From positions 1-34,535 of the forward strand of contig JAJFVA010000043.1 in the NCBI GenBank assembly GCA_021371995.1: a DNA stretch of 34,535 nt. The letters run 5' to 3'. The notes beneath the pieces were generated by a model, which saw only the letters and a list, made by a program, of their open reading frames with translations, was not told where the DNA came from and did no database searches. Source of the stretch: Methanoregulaceae archaeon (GTDB taxonomy: Archaea > Halobacteriota > Methanomicrobia > Methanomicrobiales > Methanospirillaceae). Made by a program: the position numbers and the translations under genes. Shown here piece after piece: positions 2,917 to 34,057 of this stretch (the first letter of the stretch is position 1; the number at the start of each line of letters is the position of its first letter).

Positions 2917-3483
2917 TCAGGCTGCCTTTTGTGCAGACCTGAGGAAGAACGAACCAACAATGGCTGCAAACCCAAACACGACACCGAGAATCCCGAAGAC
3001 GAAGGGGACTGCAATGGTGGAAGCGACGGGGTTTGCGAGGATGATAAGTCCGAAGATGAGGGAGAGGATACCCAGGATTCCCACGCCCCAGCCCTGGCCG
3101 GTGAATGCTCCGTACAGGGCAATAAACCCATAAATCAGTGCGATAACTCCCACCATGATGGTGAATACAAACGGCACGATGAAAGTGCTGTAGAGTGGAT
3201 AGGCAAGGATCAGGAGACCAAGGATGATACCAAGGATACCAAGGAGGATTTTCATTCCCCGATTGCTGCTATCCACAAAGGCACTGAAGAGGGTAACCAT
3301 CCCGCTAAAGAACCAGTAAAACCCAAGGAACCAGATGATTACGTACAGGGTTTTAATGGGATAGGTGAGCAGGAAACTACCAATGATAAGGGCGAGTATT
3401 CCCTGTATCAGCAGGAGCCACCAGGGAAAGAAGGTCCCCATCGGGTGAGGGACTCCCGTTGTTGCAGTCATTTCATCAGTCAT
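2917..3483 (-). CDS. HdeD/DUF308 family membrane protein, copy A
   Basis: A 188-residue, almost wholly hydrophobic protein with about six transmembrane helices arranged as repeated two-helix units; motifs such as WWLLLIQGILALIIG and repeated YPIKT/ANPVAST turns are typical of the HdeD/DUF308 family. E. coli HdeD is linked to acid resistance; the role in archaea is unknown. The start is set by the ribosome binding site GGTGATTT 6 bases ahead of ATG, a signal also present before copy B. The protein is nearly identical through its C-terminal two thirds to copy B at 5988-6548, on the same strand, so the two are a duplication flanking a surface-protein locus. Confidence 0.88.
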   Translation of the reverse strand: MTDEMTATTGVPHPMGTFFPWWLLLIQGILALIIGSFLLTYPIKTLYVIIWFLGFYWFFSGMVTLFSAFVDSSNRGMKILLGILGIILGLLILAYPLYSTFIVPFVFTIMVGVIALIYGFIALYGAFTGQGWGVGILGILSLIFGLIILANPVASTIAVPFVFGILGVVFGFAAIVGSFFLRSAQKAA

Positions 3484-5987: not shown

Positions 5988-6548
5988 TCAGGCCGCTTTT
6001 TGTGCAGACCTGAGGAAGAATGAACCAACAATAGCCGCAAATCCAAAGACGATACCAAGGACCCCGAAGACAAAGGGAACTGCAAGGGTGGATACCCAGG
6101 GGTTGGCAAGGATGATAAGCCCGAACAGGATGGAGAGGATACCCAGGATTCCGACACCCCACCCCTTACCGGTGAATGCCCCGTACAGGGCAATAAACCC
6201 GTAGATCAGGGCTATGACTCCCACCATGATGGTGAATACAAACGGCACAACGAAGGTACTGTAGTAGGGGTAGGCCAGAATCAGAAGGCCGAGAATAATA
6301 CCAATAATACCGAGAAGAATTTTCATTCCCCGATCGGTGGTATCCGCAAAGGCGCCAAACAAGGTAAAGATTCCGCTTACGAACCAGTATGCCCCGAGGA
6401 AGACGATGATCACCATCAGGGTCTGGATAGGGTAGGTTATCAGGTAGATACCCAGGATGAGGGCAATGATGCCCTGGATGAGGAGGAGCCACCAAGGGAA
6501 GAAGCTCCCAAGGGGGTGAGCAGAGGTTGTAGTCATTTCAGCTGACAT
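5988..6548 (-). CDS. HdeD/DUF308 family membrane protein, copy B
   Basis: A 186-residue paralogue of the protein at 2917-3483. The two differ mainly in the first 75 residues; the stretches GMKILLG, PFVFTIMVGVIALIYGF and AAIVGSFFLRSAQKAA are shared. It has about six helices and a short polar N-terminus. Its ribosome binding site, GGTGATTT 6 bases before ATG, is conserved with copy A, so the duplication included the translation signal. It is transcribed away from the DUF6325 gene; the 205-base divergent gap is A/T-rich. Role unknown, possibly envelope or acid stress by family analogy. Confidence 0.88.
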   Translation of the reverse strand: MSAEMTTTSAHPLGSFFPWWLLLIQGIIALILGIYLITYPIQTLMVIIVFLGAYWFVSGIFTLFGAFADTTDRGMKILLGIIGIILGLLILAYPYYSTFVVPFVFTIMVGVIALIYGFIALYGAFTGKGWGVGILGILSILFGLIILANPWVSTLAVPFVFGVLGIVFGFAAIVGSFFLRSAQKAA

Positions 6549-8229: not shown

Positions 8230-8238
8230 CCATTGCAA

Positions 8239-8260
8239 CCCTCTTTTTGGAAAAAGTGGG
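8239..8260 (+). terminator. Short perfect-arm inverted repeat after the two-helix protein gene
   Basis: CCC-T-CTTTTT-GG-AAAAAG-T-GGG forms a dyad with a single T/T mismatch, starting 9 bases after the stop codon at 8229. The position suggests a transcript end, although the tight two-base centre makes a DNA-level or processing role equally possible. Confidence 0.4.
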
Positions 8261-8432
8261 AGGCAGGGTCCTTTCAGAATACGAAGATCTTTTCTTTCAT
8301 CTCTTCTCATCCATAGTTCCCTGTTATTTGCCCACCTGCAAACACTCAGGTCACTTGATGCTGGTCGATGATAAGTATCTGCGATGACTCGAGATGGTGA
8401 TTCCGTAGTTCCGGTTTTTATAAACGGATTTT

Positions 8433-8985
8433 TTCATTCGGGATAGACGCAATAATCGTATCCAGATTTATTCCTGCAAGAAGACCTTGAACAATGTGCA
8501 ATCCGGATTTTCCGAAGATATCTGCAAGTACTGAAGATACCTTGATTGATGCCGATTCGAGGATCCGGTGAACTCTGTTCTTGAGCATGGTTCGATTGTT
8601 GACCAGGTGCTCACGGGATCGCGTGAGGTTTCTTAGCTCTCTCTGCTTTTTTTGGGAAGATGCGTGAAGGTTTGATCAGGTCATTCAATGCAAGCTGGGC
8701 TATCCACTGGGCATCGGCGATATCAGTTTTCCTCCCGGGAATATTTTTGATGAGATATGGATGTGCTACTATGACTTCGATGTGGTCTTCCAAGGTGAAA
8801 TAAAGAGAATACACGTAAATCCCAATGGATTCTAATTCTACCCGTTCACATCGTTCCTTGAGTATCTATTCCTTGAATTCAAGCAGCCCTGAGTTGTCAG
8901 ACTGGAATTTCCTACTTGTTGATTCCCCTGTTTGTGATAGAAGTGCAGCGACAAAGAATTGTTTGTGAACATCTACCCCGCTAAC
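8433..8985 (-). pseudogene. Decayed IS110-family transposase
   Basis: On the minus strand, conceptual translation gives the N-terminal DEDD domain of IS110 transposases: GVDVHKQFFVAAL, then LLEFKE, a TAG stop (8866-8868) where the family normally has Trp, then RVELESIGIY (family MESTGVYW), then IKNIPGRKTDIADAQWIAQL. All acidic positions of the DEDD core remain recognisable. In the A7 run (T7 on the plus strand, 8647-8653) the frame shifts; the new frame continues with RELRNLTRSREHLVNNRTMLKNRVHRILE-like sequence (split here for length) and LADIFGKSGLHIVQGLLAG. The match is lost near 8433, so the C-terminal serine domain is missing. The element is inactive. Flanks 8261-8432 and 8986-9240 hold no gene that I can support. 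Confidence 0.85.
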
Positions 8986-9244
8986 TTTACTTCGTTGGGA
9001 CAACTCATACTCCGGCGGGGAGATATTCCCATTGAAGGCAATTTAGCATCCCCGTTCAAAGACGCATGTATGCTTTCGATAGAGATTCTGGCTGGTTTCT
9101 ACACAGGGATTATTTCCCAAAAACCTTTCAGCCTTCTCTCCCCACCAGAACATACTTGAAAAAGGATCTCCTTGTTTTTCATTCTGTAAACTTGAGTTTT
9201 CGAATAATGTGCCTTTTTTTTAAGAGCCAGATTAATAATATTAT

Positions 9245-9290
9245 GATCCTCTAGAAGGCGTCAGAAAACGACCACCTATGGTAGAGGATC
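9245..9290. repeat. 9-bp inverted repeat at the 3' end of the efflux gene
   Basis: GATCCTCTA (9245-9253) and its exact complement TAGAGGATC (9282-9290) flank 28 bases; the right arm overlaps the transporter stop codon. On the minus strand this would fold at the transcript end, followed by A/T-rich sequence, so a terminator is plausible. It also sits at the junction between the IS110 remnant and the transporter, so an insertion boundary is possible. Confidence 0.5.
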
Positions 9291-11177: not shown

Positions 11178-11831
11178 TCACGCATTGAATCTTTTAAGGA
11201 AAGTGCTGTCCTTCACCATTTCATGGAAGATCGTTTCTTTTCCATAGTGTTTCAGGTAATAGTAGCATATAATTCCCACAACGAGTGAGGAGATCAGTAC
11301 AAAGATCATGTCGGTCATCGTGTCGGCATTGTTCGCCTGCATCAGTCCGGCTGCGGATCCTCCAAAGAATGAGTCAATACCAAACTCCCATATCTCCCAG
11401 AAATATTCAAAGACACACCCGAAGAAGACGATGAAGATTCCAATGAACGAGGCGTCGAGGTTGAAATTTTTGATCTTGTCCCAGAATAAAATGAGCAGAA
11501 AACCGATCAGGGCAACGATAGTTCCCGATACAAAGTGGGCAAGCATATCCCAGTTAATGAACGTGAGATATCTCCCCTGGATGTAACCCGAGGTATGGAT
11601 CAGGACGGCCAGGGATACAAGGAAATACACGAACCAGGGGAACATGATCTTTGTCTTCCAGGAGAACACGTAGATTATCAGTGCTATCAGGAAGAGGACT
11701 AAACCGATGAGGATATCTTCTGGTTTGAACAGCACTGCAAGAAGTACGTTAAAGGCGATAGCTGCCTGGACAAAATAAGCAAGGTACATGCCAGGTGTAC
11801 GGAATCGAGAAGCCATGGCATAGTATTTCAT
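11178..11831 (-). CDS. YjdF/DUF2238-like membrane protein
   Basis: A 217-residue protein with about six transmembrane helices. Signature residues fit the DUF2238 (YjdF) family: WDMLAHFVSG after helix 3, EYFWEIWEFGID in helix 5 and DTMTDMIF before the last helix, that is, a conserved set of Asp, His and Glu in or near the membrane. Function unknown. The C-terminus is basic and cytoplasmic. ATG 11831 has no clear ribosome binding site; ATG 11816 is an alternative start. It is the last gene of a minus-strand series that begins with the SulP at 16052, with gaps of 130-190 bases, so a shared transcript is uncertain. Confidence 0.75.
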   Translation of the reverse strand: MKYYAMASRFRTPGMYLAYFVQAAIAFNVLLAVLFKPEDILIGLVLFLIALIIYVFSWKTKIMFPWFVYFLVSLAVLIHTSGYIQGRYLTFINWDMLAHFVSGTIVALIGFLLILFWDKIKNFNLDASFIGIFIVFFGCVFEYFWEIWEFGIDSFFGGSAAGLMQANNADTMTDMIFVLISSLVVGIICYYYLKHYGKETIFHEMVKDSTFLKRFNA

Positions 11832-11986: not shown

Positions 11987-12814
11987 TTAATTCCCTTCAC
12001 TGGCCTGATATTGACCTTTTTCCAGCAGTTGTTCCAACTTTTCGACGCGGCTGGTGATCTCCGATTCTATCTTCTCCCGTTCGCTTATCAGTTGCTTCAG
12101 TTCAGCGAGATACCTGGCAGCCTGATCTCCTCCCTCCGGAGGTTGTTCTGGGGATTCCTCCTCTTTTGCCTGGGGGGCTAACAGTTTGCTTGATATCAAC
12201 CCGGCAAACGTCGCAAAGACTGCTACCCCGGTGGTCATCACCAGGATTCCCACCAGCCGGCCCTGGGCTGTTACCGGGAACCGGTCACCGTAACCAACGG
12301 TAGTGATGGTGACGTACGTCCACCAGATTGCATCACCGGCAGTCTGGATATTCGCAGACGTTGCAGCACGTTCGGCCTGCAGGACCATGAACCCCCCTGA
12401 TTCGATGATCAGGATGACCATTACCACCAGGATATACAATGCCGATGCAGCCCGGTTATTGGAAAGATACGATAGGATATATCCTCCCCCATACTTGTGG
12501 ATAATCCGGTATGCCTTGTAGATCCGGAACAGCCTGAAGATGCGTAACGCGGGGATGACCGCCAGCAGGTCAGCCCAGCCATAATCCCGGAGGAAGTAAT
12601 GTGACCGTGACGGCGCCGTGGCCAATCTGAGACTGAAGTCGTAGATAAAGAGCAGGGTGAGTACCGCGTTGATGATGTAGACAACATTGAGTGCATCCTG
12701 GTCCACTCCCGGGACATAGGCGAGGAGCATGTTGAAGACCGAAAGGATCGATACCGCAGCTATGAATAATTCATACCCGAAGTCCAGTTGTTCTCTGCGC
12801 TTGATCTGGAACAT
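11987..12814 (-). CDS. Six-helix potassium channel, voltage-gated-like
   Basis: A 275-residue potassium channel subunit. Helices S1 (about 14-34), S2 (44-64), S3 (80-90), an S4-like segment with spaced arginines (Arg91, Arg94, Arg97, Lys100, Arg103), S5 (124-145), the pore helix with selectivity filter TTVGYGD (171-177) and S6 (187-210). The tail has an acidic linker and a coiled coil (about 232-270) probably holding the tetramer together. No RCK domain is present. A GTG at 12823 is in frame, but I choose ATG 12814 because it is the start that aligns with the paralogue at 26979-27798, where the upstream GTG is out of frame. Confidence 0.9.
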   Translation of the reverse strand: MFQIKRREQLDFGYELFIAAVSILSVFNMLLAYVPGVDQDALNVVYIINAVLTLLFIYDFSLRLATAPSRSHYFLRDYGWADLLAVIPALRIFRLFRIYKAYRIIHKYGGGYILSYLSNNRAASALYILVVMVILIIESGGFMVLQAERAATSANIQTAGDAIWWTYVTITTVGYGDRFPVTAQGRLVGILVMTTGVAVFATFAGLISSKLLAPQAKEEESPEQPPEGGDQAARYLAELKQLISEREKIESEITSRVEKLEQLLEKGQYQASEGN

Positions 12815-12948: not shown

Positions 12949-14121
12949 TTAATCCACCATGTATTTCATAACGTTTGACGGCGGCCGGTTCGCTGTTAAT
13001 TCCTGCACCATGAATTTCATCGGCCGGTCAATATGTGAAAAGAACATCCGGTATCCTTCACAGAGGTAATTAAGGCCTGGCTCACCGTCAGGAGTTACCA
13101 CAAACCTGTTTTTTGGACATTCTCCCCGGCATGCAAAGAGAACATTGCATTCCCGGCAGTATTTCGGGAGTTTTTCCCGTTTATTCTGCCCAAACTGTCG
13201 TTGCCTATCGCTATTAACCAACTCGATTATCGGAACTTCCAGGATATTCCCGAGCAGGTGGTCCCGGTCGACAAAATGATCGCAAGAGTAGATATCCCCG
13301 TTGTGCTCGATTACCAGTGCGGACCCGCAGGTGGGTGAAAAGACACAGATCCCATGCGGCTCCCCGTACCAGTTTGCAAGGGCTGTATCAAAATGCTGGA
13401 CGTAGATCCTTCCCACGTCATGTTTCACCCATTCATCAAAGACCCCGATGAGGAACTTCCCGTACTGTTCCGGACCAACTGATAAGGGGGTCACGGTATT
13501 ACTTTGAAGGTCACGTTCTACCACCGGGATAAACTGGATAAACTGTGCCTTTACTTCATCGCGGAAGAACCGGTAGACTTCAAGGGGATGATCCCCATTC
13601 ACCGCATTGACGGTGCAAAGGATGTTATAGTCCACCTTGTGCTTTTTCAGGAGGGCGAACCCCTGCATCACCCGGTCAAACGATCCCTTCCCCGCAGCGT
13701 CTGTCCTGCAGACATCGTGCAATTTCCGCGGTCCATCGATGCTGATACCAACCAGGAACCTGTTTTTCCTGAAAAATTCGCACCACTTATCGTCCAAAAG
13801 GATTCCATTTGTCTGGATAGTGTTATGGAGTACCATGCCAGGCCTGCAATAGTTCTTCTGAAGTACCATCGCTTTCTCAAAGAAATCCCGGCCAAGGAGT
13901 GTCGGCTCACCTCCCTGCCAGGCGAAGGTAACTTCCGGTATGCAGTGTGCTTCGATAGTCTGCCGGATATACTCCTCGAGGACTTCATCTGACATCCGGA
14001 ACCGGCTCCCCGGATACAATTCCCCTTTGCGAAGGTAGAAACAGTAACGGCAGGCAAGGTCACACCGGGGACCCCCGGGTTTGGCCATGAGATGGAATGC
14101 GGGAAGATTGCAGGAAGGCAT
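12949..14121 (-). CDS. Anaerobic sulfatase-maturating enzyme (radical SAM/SPASM)
   Basis: A 390-residue radical SAM enzyme that oxidises the active-site Cys (or Ser) of a sulfatase to C-alpha-formylglycine without oxygen. The radical SAM cluster motif is Cys20-x3-Cys24-x2-Cys27, followed by WQGGEPTL (SAM-binding GGE, 69-76). The C-terminal SPASM region has Cys259, 265, 280, 322, 325, 331, 335 and 354, the eight-cysteine pattern that binds two auxiliary 4Fe-4S clusters in characterised anSME proteins. Asp281 in SCDHF matches the proton-accepting Asp of those enzymes. Its likely client is the CxPxR arylsulfatase at 19075-21411, 5 kb away on the same strand. SPASM peptide maturases are the alternative, but the Cys spacing favours anSME. 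Confidence 0.9.
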   Translation of the reverse strand: MPSCNLPAFHLMAKPGGPRCDLACRYCFYLRKGELYPGSRFRMSDEVLEEYIRQTIEAHCIPEVTFAWQGGEPTLLGRDFFEKAMVLQKNYCRPGMVLHNTIQTNGILLDDKWCEFFRKNRFLVGISIDGPRKLHDVCRTDAAGKGSFDRVMQGFALLKKHKVDYNILCTVNAVNGDHPLEVYRFFRDEVKAQFIQFIPVVERDLQSNTVTPLSVGPEQYGKFLIGVFDEWVKHDVGRIYVQHFDTALANWYGEPHGICVFSPTCGSALVIEHNGDIYSCDHFVDRDHLLGNILEVPIIELVNSDRQRQFGQNKREKLPKYCRECNVLFACRGECPKNRFVVTPDGEPGLNYLCEGYRMFFSHIDRPMKFMVQELTANRPPSNVMKYMVD

Positions 14122-14309: not shown

Positions 14310-16052
14310 CTATGCTTCTTCAAGGGAATCCTCACGAAACGCTTCGACTGCGGTTCTGATAGATGGGTAGAAATTAGAGACACCGATGAGATCTTCCAGA
14401 CCGGTCAGCTGCATGGTTTCCCGTAAACGTTTGTTCGCCCGTGCAATACCCAGGGTGATACCCTTCTCACTGAGTACCTGGTGTATGTCTTTGAGGGTAT
14501 CGGCTGCGGTAGTATCGATATCAGGAATTGCCGCTGCATCAAGGAGCAGGTACTTGAGTGGCGGATCAGCAGTTGATATGAGGTCAGTGACCTGATCCAT
14601 CAGGTAAGGAGCATTGGCAAAGAACAGTGGTGCATCGAATCCGTAGACGATCATGCCCGGCTTTACCTGCAGGTCACGTCCAGGTGCTATTCCATGATAT
14701 CCATCTACCCCAGGCTCAATTCCCAATACCGAGGTGTGGGGACGGTACACGCGCTGGATAAACACAATCAGGGAGCAGGCTATGGCAAGCGCTATGCCCG
14801 GAATGATTCCAATGACGAGCACTCCAAAGAGGGTCAGAATGGCCAGATAGTATTCGCTATGGCGCACGATATGCAGACTCCGGAACTCCTGGATGTCGAA
14901 TAAGCTGATGCACGCAACGATGATAATCGCACCCAGCACTGAGGTAGGAAGGCTCTGAAGGAGCGATGTAAAGAACAGAAGAAAAACAATCACCAGTCCG
15001 GCAGCGATTAATCCCACCATCTGACTCTTTCCGCCGGAATTATCGTTGACAACCGTCCTTGAAGAGCTGGCTGCTACAGAAAAACTCTGGAAAAAGCCGG
15101 TTGAGACATTTGCTGCTCCTAAGGCAACCAGCTCCTGGTTGGCGTCTATATCATAGTGATTTTTCCTTCCAAATACCCGGGATGTCAGCACCCCATCAGC
15201 AAAAATGAGAACGCTCAGAGCAAGTGCTGCCGGCACAAGCATTGCGATGTCGGTCAGGCTTACGATCGGTATCTGCAGTTCGGGAAGGCCGCTTGCAACC
15301 TGGCCAACCACGGCTACCCCATACTCCGCAAGGTTGAAGTATGAAGATACGATAATGGCAACAACCAAGGCTACCAGCGTGGCGGGAAGCTTTGGGACGA
15401 AGCGTTTGAGGAGTATAAGTCCCAGAATAGTAACCAATCCCACTGCCAGCGTTAACAGGTGAGTCTCATCCAGACTGAGTATCAGTTCCCAGATTTTTGC
15501 AAAAAAACCATCGCTTTCCAGGGAGATACCAAAAATCTTGCCTAACTGGCTGGAGATTACTATCAGTGCGGTTCCTGCAATATACCCGGTGAGGATGGGT
15601 TTTGAGAAGAAATTGGCCACAAACCCCATCCTGAATTTGCCCGCGAGAATACAGATAACGCCGATGAGTATAGCCAATGTCGCCGCCAGGGATGCATAAC
15701 GGACGACATCCCCCCCTGCCAGAGGTGCAACGACGGTAGCTACTAAGATTGCCGTTGTTGCCTCGGGACCAATGATGAGCTGTCGTGAGCTGCCAAAGAG
15801 GGCATACACGATCATTCCGACCAGAGCCGCATATAATCCAACCACGGGATCAAACCCAGCCAGCTCACCGTAAGCGAGAGCTGAGGGAACGAGAATAGCA
15901 AAAACGGTGGCAGCGGCAACAACATCGGTCTTCAGCAAATCCCTTTTATAAGTACGAATAAGCCCTATTCCTGGCACATATTTCTCAATTCTTTGTATGC
16001 CGGAATGTTCTGGCTCTTTGACGGGCACCGCTAAACCGGATGGTCGAATCAT
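14310..16052 (-). CDS. SulP family anion transporter with STAS domain, copy 1
   Basis: A 580-residue SulP/SLC26 transporter. After a 45-residue cytoplasmic start, the membrane core (about 45-430) shows ALAYGELAGFDPVVGLYAAL and SSRQLIIGPEATTA in the substrate-binding half and the NQELVALGAANVSTGFFQSF stretch with SRTVVND further on. A cytoplasmic STAS domain (about 450-570) closes the protein and keeps an Asp-Thr-Thr-Ala motif at its regulatory site. SulP proteins move sulfate, bicarbonate, other oxyanions or dicarboxylates; the substrate cannot be read from sequence. It lies 188 bases ahead of the sulfatase maturase on the same strand, which makes sulfate an attractive candidate. Confidence 0.9.
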   Translation of the reverse strand: MIRPSGLAVPVKEPEHSGIQRIEKYVPGIGLIRTYKRDLLKTDVVAAATVFAILVPSALAYGELAGFDPVVGLYAALVGMIVYALFGSSRQLIIGPEATTAILVATVVAPLAGGDVVRYASLAATLAILIGVICILAGKFRMGFVANFFSKPILTGYIAGTALIVISSQLGKIFGISLESDGFFAKIWELILSLDETHLLTLAVGLVTILGLILLKRFVPKLPATLVALVVAIIVSSYFNLAEYGVAVVGQVASGLPELQIPIVSLTDIAMLVPAALALSVLIFADGVLTSRVFGRKNHYDIDANQELVALGAANVSTGFFQSFSVAASSSRTVVNDNSGGKSQMVGLIAAGLVIVFLLFFTSLLQSLPTSVLGAIIIVACISLFDIQEFRSLHIVRHSEYYLAILTLFGVLVIGIIPGIALAIACSLIVFIQRVYRPHTSVLGIEPGVDGYHGIAPGRDLQVKPGMIVYGFDAPLFFANAPYLMDQVTDLISTADPPLKYLLLDAAAIPDIDTTAADTLKDIHQVLSEKGITLGIARANKRLRETMQLTGLEDLIGVSNFYPSIRTAVEAFREDSLEEA

Positions 16053-17247: not shown

Positions 17248-18945
17248 ATGACCAGCGCTCAAAAAAATGGGTCCGGAAGTAAGGTCAGGAATCTGTTCCC
17301 GATTCTGACGTGGCTATCGAACTACAACTGGAAAGATATTCGCTTCGACCTGATTGCGGGTATTGTGGTCGCAGGCCTGATAATCCCCGAATCGATGGGC
17401 ATTGCCGGTGTGGCAGGGGTCGAACCACAGCACGGCCTTTATGCCATCCTTATTGCACTTTTTCTCTACGCAATATTTGGTTCTGGACGTCGCTCGGTGA
17501 TAAGTACACCGAGCGCTTTGGCTCTTCTCACCGCCTCTGCCATCGCCACCCTTGCCCTTACCGCATACGAAGATGTGCTGGCGGCAGTCGTGACCATCAC
17601 GTTCCTGACCGGCCTGATTCTCCTGATCATGGCGGTTTTGCGCCTCGGATTGTTGGCTAATTTCATTTCCTACCCGGTCATGAAAGGATTCTTGTTCGGC
17701 CTCGCATTGACTATCATCATCGGTCAGGTGCCAAAGCTCCTGGGAATAGCAAAAGGGGAAGGTAACTTCTTCGAGCAACTGTGGAGTATTATCGGTTCGC
17801 TCAGCCAGACCAGCCAGGTTACCCTGGCCCTATCGATTATCGCAGTGATTATCCTCTACGTGCTTGAAGAGCGTTTCAGGAAGATCCCCGGTGTGTTGTT
17901 GCTCTTTATCATTGGTCTTAGCGCCTCATATCTTTTAAATTGGGAGTCCCTGGGCGTTGCCCTGGTGGGATTCATCCCTGCAGGGTTGCCTGCGTTTTCA
18001 GTCCCGCAGATGAATCCCGATCTGATATTCCTTGTCATACCTGCCGCTATTGGCATCGCCTTTGTGTGCTTCTCGGAATCTGTGTCCATCGGTGATGAGG
18101 TGGCAGAGAAGCACAATGACGAGGTAGATCCCAACCAGGAGTTGATTGCCGTGGCGGCAACCAACATCGGCTCGAGCTTTGGCCAGGGGATAGGGACGGG
18201 GGTGAGCATGTCTGCGACTCACGTTGGTGACAATAGTGGCTCCAGGTCCCAAATGACCCTCATCGTTGCAGGCCTTGCGGTATTGGCCACGTTACTCTTC
18301 CTTACAGGCCTGTTCTACTATCTTCCTGAGTTCATTCTGGGCGTTATCGTCATCTTCGCAGTGAAGGGGGCCTTGAAGATAAGGCTACTGGCAAGTTATT
18401 ATGGGACGCTGCGAATCGACTTCTATTGCGCCATACTAGCACTGTTCGGGGTACTGGTTTTCGACGTACTGGTAGGTTTATTGTTAGCAATCATCATCGC
18501 CATCGGCCTGGTCATCTTGAGGATTAGCAATGAACGAGGTACCCTGCTAGGACAGATGCCTGACGGTCGGTTCATGGATCTCAGCCTGCATCCGGAGGCG
18601 AAAGAGATAGAAGGGGTAAAAATCCTCCGGCTGAACGTCACCATGTTCTACGCTAACGCACCCATGATAAAGAAACGCTTGCTCGATCTCATTCGAGAGG
18701 ACCCTCGGCCGAAGGTAGTAATCATAGACATGGAAGCCCACTACCTCCATCTCGACATCAGCTCAGCTCGCGTCCTTGAAAAGGTAGTAAAGGAAGCACA
18801 GGAGAAGAATGTTCAGATAATGTTCGTTGGTGTGAATACAGTGACGATGAGTGACATGGAGAAACAGGGACTGGTTGAACTGGCTGGCAGGGATCGTGTC
18901 AAGGAGACCATCCAGGGGGCTCTCCGCGACGTGGGGGCTTCTTAA
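17248..18945 (+). CDS. SulP family anion transporter with STAS domain, copy 2
   Basis: A 565-residue SulP transporter. The core has MGIAGVAGVEPQHGLYAIL, GSGRRSVISTPSALALL, and VDPNQELIAVAATNIGSSFG followed by SATHVGDNSG. The STAS domain (about 440-560) has DMEAHYLHLDISSARVLE, with Ser-Ser in the position that is regulatory in STAS proteins. It differs clearly from copies 1 and 3 (for example, GDEVAEKHNDEVDPN where copy 3 has ARTYAKAHDYEIDNN), so it belongs to another subgroup rather than being a recent duplicate. Cotranscribed with the membrane protein gene upstream. Eight codons of a lost DUF1214 gene follow its stop. Confidence 0.9.
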   Translation: MTSAQKNGSGSKVRNLFPILTWLSNYNWKDIRFDLIAGIVVAGLIIPESMGIAGVAGVEPQHGLYAILIALFLYAIFGSGRRSVISTPSALALLTASAIATLALTAYEDVLAAVVTITFLTGLILLIMAVLRLGLLANFISYPVMKGFLFGLALTIIIGQVPKLLGIAKGEGNFFEQLWSIIGSLSQTSQVTLALSIIAVIILYVLEERFRKIPGVLLLFIIGLSASYLLNWESLGVALVGFIPAGLPAFSVPQMNPDLIFLVIPAAIGIAFVCFSESVSIGDEVAEKHNDEVDPNQELIAVAATNIGSSFGQGIGTGVSMSATHVGDNSGSRSQMTLIVAGLAVLATLLFLTGLFYYLPEFILGVIVIFAVKGALKIRLLASYYGTLRIDFYCAILALFGVLVFDVLVGLLLAIIIAIGLVILRISNERGTLLGQMPDGRFMDLSLHPEAKEIEGVKILRLNVTMFYANAPMIKKRLLDLIREDPRPKVVIIDMEAHYLHLDISSARVLEKVVKEAQEKNVQIMFVGVNTVTMSDMEKQGLVELAGRDRVKETIQGALRDVGAS

Positions 18946-19074: not shown

Positions 19075-21411
19075 TCAGTCTCTCATGAGCCAGCCCAGGA
19101 CCTCTTTCTCATGGTCCATATAGGATTCTCCGCTCACGTCAACGATAACCTTCTCAATTGCCCCCCCCGCAAACCGGAAGGGTGCAGCATAATCCGGCGA
19201 AACCGGTGCTCCCCCATCACTCCCGACAGAGAGACCTTCCCCGAACACGCCTGGCTGGGTCATGATAGTCCCCTGACCGACCCGTTTCATATCAATGAAG
19301 AGGGTGAGCGTGCCGACCGCACTCATGGTTTTATCGTCGCCCGTTTTCACGAACTCCGCAGTAAATGCATGTTTACCGGGCGTTATCTCCATATCCGATG
19401 TCACCCGCTGGATCTTCTCCCCCAGCCAGTTATACACATAGTGCAGCTTTTTATCTTGAATGTACAGGCTGTGGCCTCCTCCAACCCCGCCATGGGCAAA
19501 GAGGACCCCTTCAGCAGCGGGGGTTTCAATGACCACACCGGCAGCGATGGTATAGTTCCGTCGCCGGATATTGACGGCAACCATTTCGGGCACCGGGGCA
19601 CAATCAGGATAGTAACTGTAGCGGTTTCGTGGTTTCGAAGGTTCTGGCCGGGGGGCCGAAAGAAGTTCAAGGGGACTGCGGTCATCGAGGGGCAGACCGT
19701 GGTAAACGCCTGCATAGTAATACCAGAGCCCTTTTAAATTCTCAAGGATGTCCGGATTTTTATCTGCCAGGTTATGCATCTGTGCCCGATCTTCTTTTAA
19801 GTTGTACAGTTCCCAGACATCATGCTCGAACCTGCCCCATCCGGAGATAGGGGGGTGAATGGTGTTTGCAAGCCAACCCCTGGAGTAGAGAGAACGTTGT
19901 CCGAGCATCGAGTAGAACTGGACCGCTTTTTCTTCTGCCTGCGGGTCCCTGATCGCCGCTGCGAAACTCTCCCCTTCGATCGGGTTCTGGGTGAACCCTT
20001 TCAGGACTTCCGGTGGCGTTATCCCCAGCAGCTCATACAGGGTCGGTACGATGTCCACAGCATGGATATACTGGTCACGTATCTCTCTCCGTGCCTTGAT
20101 TCCCTTCGGCCAGGAGATGAGACACATATCGGCGACTCCCCCCTCATACCCTGCAAACCGTTTCCAGTAGGGGAACGGGGTGTCAAAAGCCCATGCCCAG
20201 CCGGTGCAGTAATGGTTGTAGGACTTCGGGCTGCCAAGTTCGTCAATGCGGAGAAGGTTCTCCTTGATGTCATCCGGAATATTATTGAAAAATTTTATTT
20301 CATTAAAGGAACCGGTGGGACCACCTTCCCCGCTCCCACCATTATCTGAGATCACGATAACAATCGTGTTCTCCAGTTGCCCGGACTCCTCGAGATAATC
20401 GAGGATCTGTCCGATTTCCTGGTCTGTATACGATACAAACCCGGCAAATACCTCCGCCATCCGGATGAACAGCGTCTTCTCATCCGGAGAGAGGGAGTTC
20501 CAGGGGAGCACGAAATCAAGTTTCGGCCATGGCTGCCCGTCGGGTCCTTTTACATCGGGTTCCCCGTGGGGGTTGATGGGGGAGAGTTCTGTTGAATCTG
20601 GTAACAGTCCCATCTTTTTCTGGTTTGCAAGGATCTGCTTCCGGATCTCTTCGTATCCCCTGTCAAACCGGCCTTTGTACTTGTCCGCCCATTCCCTGAA
20701 GACGTGATGAGGAGCATGGGCACAACCCGGGCAGAAGTACATGAACCAGGGTTTATCCGGCGCCACGGTTTTTGCGTCCCTGATGAACTCGATTGCCCTG
20801 TCAGCAAGGTCTTTAGAGAGGTGATACCCCTTTTCAGGGGTGGATGGTTGTTCGACGGGGTGGTTATCATAGACGAGGTCCGGGTACCACTGGTTGGTCT
20901 CCCCGCCGAGGAACCCGTAAAACCGTTCGAAACCCCTGCCAAGTGGCCAGCGTGCTTTCCATGCCGAGAGATCGGTCTCCTCTCCCGGGGTGAGGTGCCA
21001 CTTGCCGACTGCATAGGTGTTCCAGCCCCGTTCATTGAGCACTTCGGCTATGGTCCCGTTCTCGAAGGGTATTCGCGCACTCAGGCCGGGGTATCCCGCC
21101 GATCCTTCGACAATGGTGGCCATGTTGTTGGTGGTCGCATTCCGTCCCGTGATGAGGCTTGAACGAGTCGGTGAACAGAGAGCAGTGGTATGGAAATTGC
21201 TGAACCGGATACCCGAATCAGCGATCCTGGTCATATTCGGGGTCTCAACCGGACCCCCGAACGTGTCCATGGTCCCATACCCCACATCATCCCAGACGAT
21301 CATCAGGATGTTTGGAGATCCTTCCGGTGCAATCGGCTGGGTAAACGGGGCCCAGTCAGGGGTAGCGTCCCTGATATCAACCGCGATTTTTCCTTTCCAT
21401 GGTTTGGTCAT
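19075..21411 (-). CDS. Arylsulfatase, cysteine-type, cytoplasmic
   Basis: A 778-residue sulfatase of the alkaline-phosphatase superfamily that hydrolyses sulfate esters. Metal ligands Asp41-Asp42 lie in WDDVGYG, the formylglycine site is Cys79 in CSPTR (79-83) with the following SSLITGR, and further active-site residues are in VGKWHL (Lys137, His139), AHAPHH (His232) and SDNGG (355-359). The length exceeds the usual 450-550 residues; an extra C-terminal part of about 200 residues includes a beta-rich region seen in large arylsulfatases. There is no signal peptide, so it should act in the cytoplasm. ATG 21411 follows GAGGATG. The anSME at 12949-14121 is the likely activator. The natural substrate is unknown. 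Confidence 0.93.
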   Translation of the reverse strand: MTKPWKGKIAVDIRDATPDWAPFTQPIAPEGSPNILMIVWDDVGYGTMDTFGGPVETPNMTRIADSGIRFSNFHTTALCSPTRSSLITGRNATTNNMATIVEGSAGYPGLSARIPFENGTIAEVLNERGWNTYAVGKWHLTPGEETDLSAWKARWPLGRGFERFYGFLGGETNQWYPDLVYDNHPVEQPSTPEKGYHLSKDLADRAIEFIRDAKTVAPDKPWFMYFCPGCAHAPHHVFREWADKYKGRFDRGYEEIRKQILANQKKMGLLPDSTELSPINPHGEPDVKGPDGQPWPKLDFVLPWNSLSPDEKTLFIRMAEVFAGFVSYTDQEIGQILDYLEESGQLENTIVIVISDNGGSGEGGPTGSFNEIKFFNNIPDDIKENLLRIDELGSPKSYNHYCTGWAWAFDTPFPYWKRFAGYEGGVADMCLISWPKGIKARREIRDQYIHAVDIVPTLYELLGITPPEVLKGFTQNPIEGESFAAAIRDPQAEEKAVQFYSMLGQRSLYSRGWLANTIHPPISGWGRFEHDVWELYNLKEDRAQMHNLADKNPDILENLKGLWYYYAGVYHGLPLDDRSPLELLSAPRPEPSKPRNRYSYYPDCAPVPEMVAVNIRRRNYTIAAGVVIETPAAEGVLFAHGGVGGGHSLYIQDKKLHYVYNWLGEKIQRVTSDMEITPGKHAFTAEFVKTGDDKTMSAVGTLTLFIDMKRVGQGTIMTQPGVFGEGLSVGSDGGAPVSPDYAAPFRFAGGAIEKVIVDVSGESYMDHEKEVLGWLMRD

Positions 21412-24151: not shown

Positions 24152-25873
24152 TCACGGCTGCACCGGAGGAACGTTCCCGTCTTGTTCCAGGATTACTGAT
24201 ATGGTGGTGGTGCGATCCAGTCTTCCTACCTTCTCCTCGATACCTGCTGCCCGTAACACATCTCTCACCTGCCATGATGCATTCGCGAGGCGGAGGGTTA
24301 CCCCTCTCCGATCGAGATCGGTAATGAGATCGCGAATCATATCTACGGCAGTCACATCAGTAATCGGGGATAAGTCGAGATCTATAATCGCGAGATGAAT
24401 CGGTCGCTGCTCCTTTGCGAGCGTTTTTAAGAAATTCTCTTTGAAGCTCTCTGCATTGGCAAAGATCAGGGGGGCATCTATCCGGAAAATAAATACCCCG
24501 GGAACGGCCTCATTTTCAGGGTGACGAGCAGTACTGCCGAACAGGTTCGTGCCAGGGATCCTGCCGACAACCCCCATGTGCGGGAAGGTAAATCGGTACA
24601 AAATCTCGACAAGGGAGAGGGCCGCACCAATCAATACCCCGGCAAGGATTCCGAATAGTAATACGCCCCCGAACGTGATCAGGGCGATGTAGATCTCTGT
24701 TTTGTTGATATGGCCGATCCGGGCCAGCCCGGCGATATCGACCATCCTGAACACCGCAACGACAATCAGTGCGGCGATCACCGGCTCTGCAAGATAGTAA
24801 AAGAATCCTGTCAGGTACAGGACGACGAGGATAGTCACCCCTGCAGCGATTGCCCCGGCCAACTGAGTCTTTGCATTGTTCCGGTCATTGACCGCGGTCT
24901 GTGAGAAACTCCCTGAAATAGGGAATCCCTGGCCCATGCCAACCGAGACACTGCTCGCCCCGAGCGCGAGAAGTTCCTGGTTATTGTCAATTTCGTAGTC
25001 GTGTGCCTTTGCATAGGTCCGGGCAATTGTACTGAGCTCAACAAAGGAAAGGACAAAAAGGCCGACCGCAAGGGGAAAGACGAATGCCACATCACCGGGT
25101 GAGAAAACCGGCAACCCGAAATCCGGGAGTCCCTGGGGAATGGTCCCGACAATCTCCACTCCCTTCTCTTCGAGCCCTGTCAGCCATACCAGGATGATGG
25201 AAAGCACAACCACGACAAGAGAACCCGGGAGACGCGGGAACTTGTGTTCCAGGGCAAAAAAGAGGAGGAGCGCCCCGATACCAAGGGCGAGTGCATAGAG
25301 ATTTGTTTCAGGGATATTTTGCAGAATGAAGATAATTTTTTGGAAGAATGATGAGGGAGCCCCCGAAAGTCCGAGCAGCTTTGGGATCTGGCTGACGAGG
25401 ATTACAATCCCGGTCCCGACCAGGAACCCTTTCAATACCGGACCTGAGATCAGGTTTACCAGGAACCCCAGCTTGAGCAACCATGCAGTCACAGAGATAA
25501 CTCCCACAATAATTGCTGTCAGGGCAACAATCCCGGCATATTCTGCCGGGCTGCTGATGACCATTGCGGCCAGGAATGTTGCCACCATGATAGATTCAGA
25601 GGAGCTGGGTCCGATGGAAGCCTGCCGCGAGGTGCCAAAGATAAAGTAGGCCAGCGGGGCCATTATGCCCGCATAGAGGCCGTATTCAGGGGGGAGGCCG
25701 GCGAGTGTTGCATAGGCCATATTGTTCGGGATGGCAAACGCAGCGAGGGTCAGCCCGGCAACGAGGTCAAATCTCAGCCAGGTTTTATCGTATGAAGGAA
25801 GCCAGCGCAGAACAGGTACCAGAGCGACTACCCTGTGTTTGGCCGCTTCCAGCGATATTCCCTGGATATTCAT
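24152..25873 (-). CDS. SulP family anion transporter with STAS domain, copy 3
   Basis: A 573-residue SulP transporter. Core motifs are MAYATLAGLPPEYGLYAGI, TSRQASIGPSSSESIM and IDNNQELLALGASSVSVGMG with SQTAVNDRNN; the STAS domain (about 430-555) has DLDLSPITDVTAVDM. The frame is open to ATG 25969, but I choose ATG 25873: it follows AAGGGGA at good spacing and gives the usual N-terminal length before WLRFDLVAGL. A TATA-like AATATATAT at 25991-25999 sits 27 bases before 25969, so transcription could start there and a leaderless 605-residue form cannot be excluded. It converges on the DUF1254 gene. Confidence 0.88.
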   Translation of the reverse strand: MNIQGISLEAAKHRVVALVPVLRWLPSYDKTWLRFDLVAGLTLAAFAIPNNMAYATLAGLPPEYGLYAGIMAPLAYFIFGTSRQASIGPSSSESIMVATFLAAMVISSPAEYAGIVALTAIIVGVISVTAWLLKLGFLVNLISGPVLKGFLVGTGIVILVSQIPKLLGLSGAPSSFFQKIIFILQNIPETNLYALALGIGALLLFFALEHKFPRLPGSLVVVVLSIILVWLTGLEEKGVEIVGTIPQGLPDFGLPVFSPGDVAFVFPLAVGLFVLSFVELSTIARTYAKAHDYEIDNNQELLALGASSVSVGMGQGFPISGSFSQTAVNDRNNAKTQLAGAIAAGVTILVVLYLTGFFYYLAEPVIAALIVVAVFRMVDIAGLARIGHINKTEIYIALITFGGVLLFGILAGVLIGAALSLVEILYRFTFPHMGVVGRIPGTNLFGSTARHPENEAVPGVFIFRIDAPLIFANAESFKENFLKTLAKEQRPIHLAIIDLDLSPITDVTAVDMIRDLITDLDRRGVTLRLANASWQVRDVLRAAGIEEKVGRLDRTTTISVILEQDGNVPPVQP

Positions 25874-26298
25874 CATGTCCCCTTCAATGATTTTCAGGTC
25901 CGGAATAGAACCTGAAGGACTTACAATGATTGGGGGAGAAGCGGTTATTAGTGTTGCGAATATGATCAAAACGCGATGAGTGTATTCATCAATATATATC
26001 AGATCACCTTATCCTCCTGTTTTTTTGTATGCAGGGCACCTTCATCCATACCCGGGCAGAACCGGTACTTCTATCCTGTTCGGCGGGAGCTTGTATAGCA
26101 AGGGTATCGCTGTGCGGGGCATCTCTGTCATCTGAAAAAGTATTCAGGGAAAACCCATTCTTGTGGAAAGATAATTTTTTTCGTAATTGCCATTTTTTTA
26201 AAAAATTGTTCCTGCCCCCATCCTTAATTCCACTCGCCGGCCTCTCTGTCCTGTCAGTTGCCTCACACAACATGGACAAATGTTTAATTCAAAAAAAA
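25874..26298. other. Intergenic region between SulP copy 3 and the META lipoprotein
   Basis: No gene supported. It holds the TATA-like box at 25991-25999 for SulP copy 3 and A/T-rich tracts at 26170-26211, including the palindrome TTTTTTAAAAAA, which may mark the transcript end of the META lipoprotein gene. Open frames here on both strands lack family resemblance and start signals. Confidence 0.4.
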
Positions 26299-26799: not shown

Positions 26800-26978
26800 A
26801 CCAGCACCTGTTTGTATAATCACCATATAAAATGCATCACGGCAACCGGAGGTTGTCCGCACAATGTCTATGCAGGAAACGATATGCTCGTATTCACTAT
26901 ATTCCCTCTAAAAAAACAATTAACAGAAATCCTGTCCTCAAAAAAATTATAGATCCTGACAATATCCTTCAATTCCTT

Positions 26979-27713
26979 TCAACAACCTGATATTGACCCT
27001 ATTCTATCAGCTGTTCCAGCTTTTCGAGGCGGGCTGGTGATCTCCATCTCTATCTTTTCCCGTTCGCTGATAAGTTGTTTTAGTTCCGCACGATACCTGG
27101 CAGCCTCATCTTCTCCCACCGGAGCTTGTTCTGGGGTCTCCTCCTCTTTTGCCGATGGAGCTAACAGTTTGCTTGATATAAGCCCAGCAAACGTCGCAAA
27201 GACCGCCACTCCCGTGGTCATCACCAAAATTCCTACCAGCCGGCCCTGGGTTGTTACCGGGAATCGGTCACCATAACCGACCGTTGTTATGGTCACATAC
27301 GCCCACCATATCGCATCACCAGCAGTGAGGATATTTGCTGACAGTGACGCACGTTCTGCCTGCAGGACCATGAACCCCCCTGATTCGATGATGAGAATAA
27401 CCATCAACACCAGGATATACAATGCTGATGCAGCCCGGTTATTTGAAAGGTAGGTTACGATATATCGTCCCCCGTACTTGTGGATGATCCGGTATGCCTT
27501 GTAGATCCGGAACAGCCGGAAGATTCGTAACGCCGGGATCACAGCCAGCAGGTCAGCCCAGCCATAATCCCGGAAGAAATAATGCGACCGGGAAGGCGCC
27601 GTGGCTAATCTGAAACTAAAGTCGAAGATGAAGAGGGGGGTGAGCACCAGATTGATGATGTAGACGACATTGAGTGCATCCTGGTCAACTCCAGGGATGT
27701 AGGCGAGGAGCAT
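26979..27713 (-). CDS. Second potassium channel copy, frameshifted at both ends
   Basis: The 244-residue open part is nearly identical to the channel at 11987-12814 from S2 to the acidic linker, with the S4-like RIFRLFRIYKAYR, the filter TTVGYGD and S6 intact. Alignment of the DNA shows one extra base near 27774 (TTGCCTCT against TTGTTCT), which puts the ancestral start ATG 27798 and most of S1 out of frame, and one extra base near 27030 that changes the last 20 residues; even with that corrected, a TAG precedes the ancestral end near 26969. The first in-frame ATG (27713) lies late in S1. It is either a pseudogene or a shortened channel lacking S1. Confidence 0.75.
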   Translation of the reverse strand: MLLAYIPGVDQDALNVVYIINLVLTPLFIFDFSFRLATAPSRSHYFFRDYGWADLLAVIPALRIFRLFRIYKAYRIIHKYGGRYIVTYLSNNRAASALYILVLMVILIIESGGFMVLQAERASLSANILTAGDAIWWAYVTITTVGYGDRFPVTTQGRLVGILVMTTGVAVFATFAGLISSKLLAPSAKEEETPEQAPVGEDEAARYRAELKQLISEREKIEMEITSPPRKAGTADRIGSISGC

Positions 27714-27886
27714 GTTGAAGACCGAAAGGATCGAGACCGCAGCGATGAATAATTCATAGCCGAAGTCCAGTTGCCTCTCTGCGCTTGATATGGTACATTG
27801 AAATTCACAACAAGAAAGATTCGGGGACGACTTATTAAAACTGTTCGAGTGGGGTATTGCGATCGTTTCTGCGAAAAATTGTTATT

Positions 27887-28543
27887 TCAGATATATCCTA
27901 CGCGAAGAAGGAGAGAGCCCATCAGGTAGAGAGCTACGCTGAACATGATCAGGGTCAGCACTAATATCCCCTGCCGTATTTTCGTTGATTCCCACCGTGA
28001 ATATACACCGCAGAAGAACAGGACTATAGCAAAGAGGACCGTATTTGAAATATAGAGGTCTCCGTTAGTATTCGCGTCCTTTCCGGCATTGAATGAAGCC
28101 GATGCCTGCTCCTCCAGGAGGGCACTCTCCTTATATTTCGCGACTTCATATTCCGGACGATTAAATGGCGTTCCTGGCGGGATCGGGTTTGTAGCATTTC
28201 TCTCAGCAATCCAGGCTTCAAATGCTGGCTTGAACTCCTCTCTGAAGCGTTCTTCTAAAAAATCTGCCTGCTGCTGATCATTCTTGCTGACTGCATCCAG
28301 CCAGCCAAGAAAGAGCTCGACGTCAATAATTACCTCTGAATTTGCCAATGTAGTAGCTCTAATCGATTCTGTCCGGTACTTTGCAGACTCGCCAAAATCG
28401 ACTGCCTGGACTCCGTTCCACCGGGTAGCCTGGTAGACACAAAACGCGGTGGAGAGCGTGGCAACGAGGAGGATGATGGCAAAGATGACATCCAGCGTAG
28501 GAGTGCCTTTTTTTGGGAGTTTCAGTTTGCCCGAATCCATCAT
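27887..28543 (-). CDS. Hypothetical membrane protein with large extracytoplasmic helical loop
   Basis: A 218-residue protein of unknown family. A basic start is followed by one helix (about 18-38), a charged, helical region of about 120 residues containing the repeat-like DFLEERFREEFKPAFEAWIAE, and two C-terminal helices (about 168-186 and 193-215). This layout resembles DUF4337-type proteins, but I am not sure of the match. The start follows GAGGTC on the minus strand; ATG 28543 and 28540 are equally possible. It lies 78 bases downstream of the CLC gene and is probably cotranscribed with it. Confidence 0.75.
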   Translation of the reverse strand: MMDSGKLKLPKKGTPTLDVIFAIILLVATLSTAFCVYQATRWNGVQAVDFGESAKYRTESIRATTLANSEVIIDVELFLGWLDAVSKNDQQQADFLEERFREEFKPAFEAWIAERNATNPIPPGTPFNRPEYEVAKYKESALLEEQASASFNAGKDANTNGDLYISNTVLFAIVLFFCGVYSRWESTKIRQGILVLTLIMFSVALYLMGSLLLRVGYI

Positions 28544-33484: not shown

Positions 33485-34057
33485 TTATGCCTTGCAGTAC
33501 TCGTTCTTGATACTCCGGAGGGCAAACCCTGCGATGATAGAGAGTATGCCGTAGATAAGGAAGTACAGGCCGATGAGGTACCCGAACAGAATAACTGACC
33601 CTATGAGCGGATAGATCATCAACAGGATGGCAAAGATGATCGAGAGGACACCCATGATAAAGAGCAGCCAGCGATGCGGGTACGTCTTTTCGGACAGTGC
33701 AATGGTAACGTTCACGATACCGATGACAAACATGACAATAGCAATGATGATGGTAAGAAACGCAGCCAGGAACTGGGGGGCGACGAGAGCACTGGCTCCC
33801 ACGATGAACCCGAGTATTGCAGCAAACAGTAAAAGGGTAGGACGACCTGATTCTCCGGTACTCATCAGTGCCATGACAAGAGCCATGAATGCGAGGATGA
33901 TGATCAGTACCCCAAAGAGCATGACAAGCACTGCTGCAGTTATGCCGGGGTAGAAAAAGATTAGGATACCAAAGATGAGTGAGAGCAGCCCGATGAGGAC
34001 GAAGGTCCCCCACTTCACATTGCACATTTTTTCTTCATATACGATAACGTCAGTCAT
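33485..34057 (-). CDS. HdeD/DUF308 family membrane protein, copy C
   Basis: A 190-residue protein with about six helices in paired units, for example FVLIGLLSLIFGILIFFYPG and LFIMGVLSIIFAILLMIYPL. It belongs to the same family as copies A and B but is distant from them, with a different N-terminus and a polar loop STGESGRP after helix 3. The start follows GAGGTC on the minus strand; the transcript ends near an A run on the plus strand (33467-33472). Convergent with the cardiolipin synthase gene. A role in envelope stress is only a family-based guess. Confidence 0.85.
   Translation of the reverse strand: MTDVIVYEEKMCNVKWGTFVLIGLLSLIFGILIFFYPGITAAVLVMLFGVLIIILAFMALVMALMSTGESGRPTLLLFAAILGFIVGASALVAPQFLAAFLTIIIAIVMFVIGIVNVTIALSEKTYPHRWLLFIMGVLSIIFAILLMIYPLIGSVILFGYLIGLYFLIYGILSIIAGFALRSIKNEYCKA

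Follow-up and report, generated by a model that had tools for sequence, protein, structure and literature searches.

An intact Kv-like potassium channel gene and a second copy, probably a young pseudogene, on one Methanoregulaceae contig

We describe two related Kv-like potassium channel genes that lie ~14 kb apart on one archaeal contig. One of them, copy A, is intact. The other, copy B, is in our judgement likely to be a young pseudogene of a dispensable, laterally shuffled channel, left standing beside its intact relative. The stretch of DNA analysed, hereafter the window, comprises contig 27 in full (34,535 bases) and comes from a genome of 43 contigs and 1.85 Mb that is 98.6% complete. 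To judge from its family, Methanoregulaceae, the host would be a methanogen. Besides copies A and B, the genome has one further match to the channel, a distant one (36%) on another contig. The named relatives that we found are MAGs, namely OWC_0046 and Prado136 (both Methanoregulaceae) and BL5_bin.12 (labelled Euryarchaeota). The contig of OWC_0046 is identical, letter for letter, to a contig of G010, a member of the window's own genus; that of Prado136 is likewise identical to a contig of G064, listed under another genus.

Copy A (11987-12814, minus strand) encodes 275 amino acids followed by a stop codon. It matches the Pfam families Ion_trans (4e-18; 65.9 bits, above the gathering cut-off of 25) and Ion_trans_2 (1.8e-14). 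Its best sequence match among solved structures is 6uwm, a voltage-gated potassium channel (5.7e-19), which covers residues 15-225. The TVGYGD filter and the basic residues of S4 are present; positions V173-D177 of the filter and R91, R94, R97 and K100 of S4 are invariant in all 17 aligned sequences, copy B included.

The AlphaFold2 model of copy A (pLDDT 76, pTM 0.65) shows clear helices for S1 (residues 12-31), S2, S4, S5, the pore and S6, with S3 as two short helices and a C-terminal coil at residues 231-265. Foldseek places Kv channels at the top of the matches to this monomer model (E 2.5e-6), yet with a TM of only ~0.3, so that the model fails to reproduce their overall arrangement. Altogether, copy A is a Kv-like K+ channel by its domains, filter, S4 segment and match to a solved structure, and its voltage gating is predicted.

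The whole homologous unit of copy B, which reaches from a TATA-like element into the 3' flank, occupies 26940-27844 on the minus strand, as do all the features of this copy given below. Aligned over 27844-26940 in B and 12858-11960 in A, the two copies share 776 identities in 898 columns. Such a likeness, 86% of the DNA over ~900 bases, is far beyond chance. The stretch that matches the copy of G010 is 26966-27844. The TATA-like element, TTTTAATAAG at 27831-27840, aligns with CCTTAATAYG in A, G010 and L034, and is a putative promoter.

The two indels and the TAG codon pointed out in the initial annotation are all confirmed by the alignment. The 5' frameshift, at about codon 8-9 (27774-27775), is a one-base insertion: copy B reads AGAGAGGC at 27775/27774, where the counterpart is AGAGAAC in A and AGAGAGC in the relative L034. 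The 3' frameshift results from one base inserted in a CCC run (27031-27033; CC in A); it alters everything after residue 255 of A, and with it the final 10 residues of the predicted coil. The TAG (26999-27001) lies in the former frame, at the place of residue 266 of the 275 in A. Relative to an intact homologue, copy B thus carries disabling lesions, one of the marks of a pseudogene: two frameshifts and one TAG. An extra base just 5' of the aligned ATG (CAATG in copy B, CATG in A) was also considered as a lesion and rejected, since L034 has CAATG as well; this base is perhaps ancestral, and outside the gene.

Because of the insertion at 27775/27774, the frame that starts at the aligned ATG (27798) meets a TGA after 14 codons (27754-27798). 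Beyond this point extends an open core of 247 codons (27033-27773) that comprises S1-S6, with S4, the TVGYGD filter and the first part of the coil, and differs from A by 23 amino acids. Segments S2-S6 had already been described as open; S1 is open too. The core frame is open from upstream, and a search of it for ATG, GTG or TTG before 27713 found none. The longest ORF with a usual start codon (26979-27713, 244 aa) begins at an ATG whose counterpart in A is Met29, a residue close to the end of the S1 model helix (12-31), and still matches Ion_trans with 61 bits. No single open frame of copy B has a usual start and spans S1-S6, as a working channel would. In addition, a radical change, leucine to proline, is found in the S2 helix at position 54 of A; it occurs in copy B alone, the other 16 of the 17 sequences having L, I or A.

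Lesions of one base naturally raise the matter of errors. If both frameshifts were assembly or sequencing errors in a draft, probably metagenome-derived contig, copy B would be an intact second channel. One-base expansions in very short runs could arise in assembly, both changes are of this kind, the genome, in 43 contigs, is still a draft, and no relaxed constraint is seen in the core. We nevertheless consider errors an unlikely cause. The runs are only GG and CCC, the TAG in the former frame and the S2 proline are point changes, which would have to be explained separately, and a difference of ~14% between A and B should keep their reads apart. As a control, we took the 12 window genes that have a counterpart in the fetched loci; all are unbroken in the window, aligned in one piece over 9,387 bases in total, a set that covers part of the window's genes and, in the forward search, starts from ORFs open by choice. 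A reverse search, with the ORFs of relatives against the window, recovered the same 12 genes in one piece and stop-free. With 12 genes unbroken and collinear, two artefacts within a single 0.8-kb gene are unlikely. The reverse search matched 53 ORFs of relatives to the window, 34 of them stop-free and 19 with stops; by their coordinates, the 19 are read as overlapping or opposite-strand frames, or as too-early starts of the same genes.

The initial annotation had proposed to compare nonsynonymous and synonymous changes between the copies, and the outcome speaks for selection on the protein: over the 247-codon core, dN is 0.053 and dS is 0.50 (ratio 0.107). This dS also led us to reject a recent duplication of A and B. 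On the copy B branch, with L034 as the only outgroup, the 41 polarised changes comprise 30 synonymous and 11 nonsynonymous ones, a count that leaves out gapped codons, sites at which A, B, G010 and L034 show a pattern outside the four scored, and the partial Prado136 sequence (161 codons), and that takes two copy B changes in one codon separately. Under neutrality, ~29-31 of the 41 would be nonsynonymous or stop changes. None of 4000 neutral simulations, seeded from the core of A and not from a reconstructed ancestor, gave 11 or fewer at any of the three ts/tv settings.

It follows from these counts that the protein was under selection before the lesions, which are young in comparison with the copy. 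Selection acted on copy B during most of its history, and the frame was lost late. The very recent decay suggested at the outset therefore holds for the lesions, and not for the copy itself, whose dS of 0.50 is no sign of recent origin. In a mixing model, the unconstrained share of copy B changes has P 0.055 at 20% and 0.016 at 30%, which suggests that at most about a fifth to a third of the changes arose in unconstrained time. Compared with the 27 synonymous and 18 nonsynonymous changes of A, G010 and their stem taken together, the 30/11 of copy B is not distinguishable (Fisher p = 0.26). There is no excess of nonsynonymous change in the copy B core, which is expected also if decay is recent. 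The openness of the core alone tells little, since many neutral simulations stayed stop-free as well (650, 885 and 1074 of 4000 at the three ts/tv settings).

Some points count against a pseudogene, among them the absence of relaxed constraint in the core and the 61-bit Ion_trans match. In the available part of PMC8211752 the majority of interrupted genes are stated to be functional, and in that of PMC7918605 conserved stop-bearing genes with a kept dN/dS are said often not to be pseudogenes. Both indels of copy B are confined to the outer tenth of the gene; two random breaks would leave a clean middle of at least 90% with a chance of ~1%, by post hoc arithmetic. Such a placement would be compatible with selection that preserves the core, or with chance.

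The initial annotation had raised, next to decay, a shortened subunit that might co-assemble with the full channel. Copy B would then still be translated, from an unusual start or from ATG 27713, and its product could join A. What stands of this idea is an S1-S6 core that is open, under purifying selection and without relaxed constraint, together with the kept TATA-like element. However, a gene inactivated only recently should have its core open as well, and recent decay explains an open, constrained core just as well; decay is favoured over the co-assembling subunit. Other observations weigh against translation. The core frame lacks ATG, GTG and TTG before 27713, and a start there would remove nearly all of S1; the coil is cut, with its last 10 residues replaced, and the S2 proline is borne by copy B alone. 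No orthologue of copy B is known from the 108 family genomes searched. With copy B DNA as the query, the search returned A (86%), G010 (85%) and Prado136 (84%, partial), the next match being at 71%; as nothing is closer to copy B than A, no orthologue shows that this shape has been kept. We rate a translated short subunit as very improbable.

A candidate for an unusual start is CTG 27770, preceded by GAGAGG. Its product would have the full S1-S6, and would be devoid of the N-terminal peptide and of the end of the C-terminal coil. That copy B acts from this codon as a regulatory subunit, one that enters channel A and alters how the channel gates or how much of it there is, seems to us more doubtful still. 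Programmed ribosomal frameshifting, by which copy B would yield a full channel, is barely credible. The available text of PMC8211752 does report one archaeal case of programmed -1 frameshifting. Copy B, however, would need two separate shifts, and even then its frame would close too soon, at the TAG at 27001-26999. Its two sites, GAGAGGCAA and CAGCCCGCC, are not A/T-rich slippery tracts of the sort described in that text, and A, G010 and L034, its close homologues, are read without any shift. We thus retain the young pseudogene as the preferred reading.

As for the origin of the two copies, the tree joins A first with Prado136 (support 90), then with G010 (92), copy B (95) and L034 (98). A duplication before the split from G010, which this order first suggested, was rejected: the channel has diverged much less than the backbone genes have, so the species split cannot date A, B and the copy of G010. 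Between the window and G010, dS is 0.85 for g30290, 1.00 for DUF308c, 1.19 for both ClC and g30937, 1.38 for CLS and 1.63 for g31446. The same comparison gives only 0.26 for the channel (copy A), 0.39 for the end of the sulfatase, 0.42 for the sulfatase maturase and 0.80 for a 217-aa membrane protein. Against Prado136, of another genus, dS is 0.23 for the channel (~160 codons), 0.23 for the membrane protein and 1.59 for ClC. With its dS (0.26 and 0.23) far under that of the backbone (0.85-1.6), the channel appears to have been exchanged laterally along with neighbours, which is the simplest reading of the low values.

The site of copy B occurs only in this genome among the genomes examined. 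G010 has no channel on either side of ClC; the ORF that follows its ClC is a different one, presumably phosphoesterase-like from its sequence. In Prado136, no start of copy B is found in the 257 bases after the g27887 homologue, up to the contig end.

Loss of the channel is common in the genus. Its 11 other genomes divide into four with an intact close homologue (G002, G006, G009 and G010; 59-92% identity), three with a wrecked remnant and four without a close match. The remnant of G003, ~70 codons with an indel, lies upstream of ClC, the remainder of the gene being gone. Those of G008 and G011 carry stops and deletions, and the latter lies within 500 bases of a contig end; because their DNA is 76% identical (L077:3241-3730 and L078:1-480), they are probably one old shared pseudogene, heavily decayed. 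No close match was found in G001, G004, G005 and G007 (98, 74, 64 and 82% complete), which, for mostly incomplete genomes, makes weak absences; G001 and G004 have hits of ~30% only. In G002, G006 and G009 the channel sits between g30290 and ClC. The same place is empty in the window, where a remnant was sought between ClC and g30290 and not found. A scan of viral contigs for the channel returned 36 pattern matches, none of them confirmed.

Several other features of the contig are worth recording. A sulfatase (Pfam), an anaerobic sulfatase maturase and three transporter-like ORFs lie at 12949-14121 (-), 19075-21411 (-), 14310-16052 (-), 17248-18945 (+) and 24152-25969 (-). The maturase matches TIGR03942 with 498 bits (cut-off 349). 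We take the CSPTR motif of the sulfatase to be of the Cys type, and the three ORFs to be SulP-type transporters, from their sequence. In G010 the sulfatase end adjoins the maturase, both at a dS of ~0.4 from the window. The proteins of 217 and 218 aa at 11178-11831 (-) and 27887-28543 (-) are membrane-like by eye, and searches of Pfam and NCBIfam at E 0.001 returned no match for either. The former has a homologue near the channel in L033 and L035, and beside the remnant in G008. Three small membrane-like proteins (2917-3483, 5988-6548 and 33485-34057 (-)) presumably belong to HdeD/DUF308. Finally, ~1 kb at 8230-9288 is devoid of any ORF of at least 80 aa and of Rfam matches at the gathering score; Rfam and tRNA scans of the window gave no match.

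We now propose a history for copy B. The channel clade seems, from the dS values, to be laterally exchanged among Methanoregulaceae. The host genome has two diverged members, both of which evolved, as dN/dS shows, under selection for the protein. Copy B would then have been disabled by the two one-base insertions visible in this assembly, with copy A presumably left as the working channel. Should the TATA-like element still drive transcription of copy B, a peptide of 14 residues would be made from the aligned ATG. In itself this adds little, one more young pseudogene. It also offers a detailed case of an ion channel gene that seemingly passes from one related archaeal species to another and is lost time and again, a single genome here having both an intact copy and a freshly broken one. 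A clean core between damaged ends is how a constrained gene looks after recent inactivation, and alone is no sign of a retained short protein.

Our literature search found no report pairing Methanoregula with a potassium channel, and for KvAP, methanogens and potassium channels together it found only cyclic-nucleotide-gated channels. The closest known systems are the prokaryotic voltage-gated K+ channels 6uwm, 2a0l and 1orq, which we take to be of the KvAP type. The window's channels share with them the Ion_trans domain, the regularly spaced basic residues of S4 and the TVGYGD filter. Unlike them, copy A has a predicted C-terminal coil (231-265), and copy B has neither a usual start ahead of S1 nor the final part of the coil. 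Copy A is only weakly alike to NF040645 (K_channel_Meth, the NCBIfam family of hyperpolarization-activated voltage-gated potassium channels) and is no member of it, with 33 bits, far under the cut-off of 300. As to the broken copy, many prokaryotic pseudogenes are read as failed horizontal transfers in the available part of PMC522871. Copy B resembles these in being disabled, in its probably laterally moved origin and in having an intact copy elsewhere in the genome. It differs from them in having evolved mostly under constraint, and so is not a transfer that failed at once.
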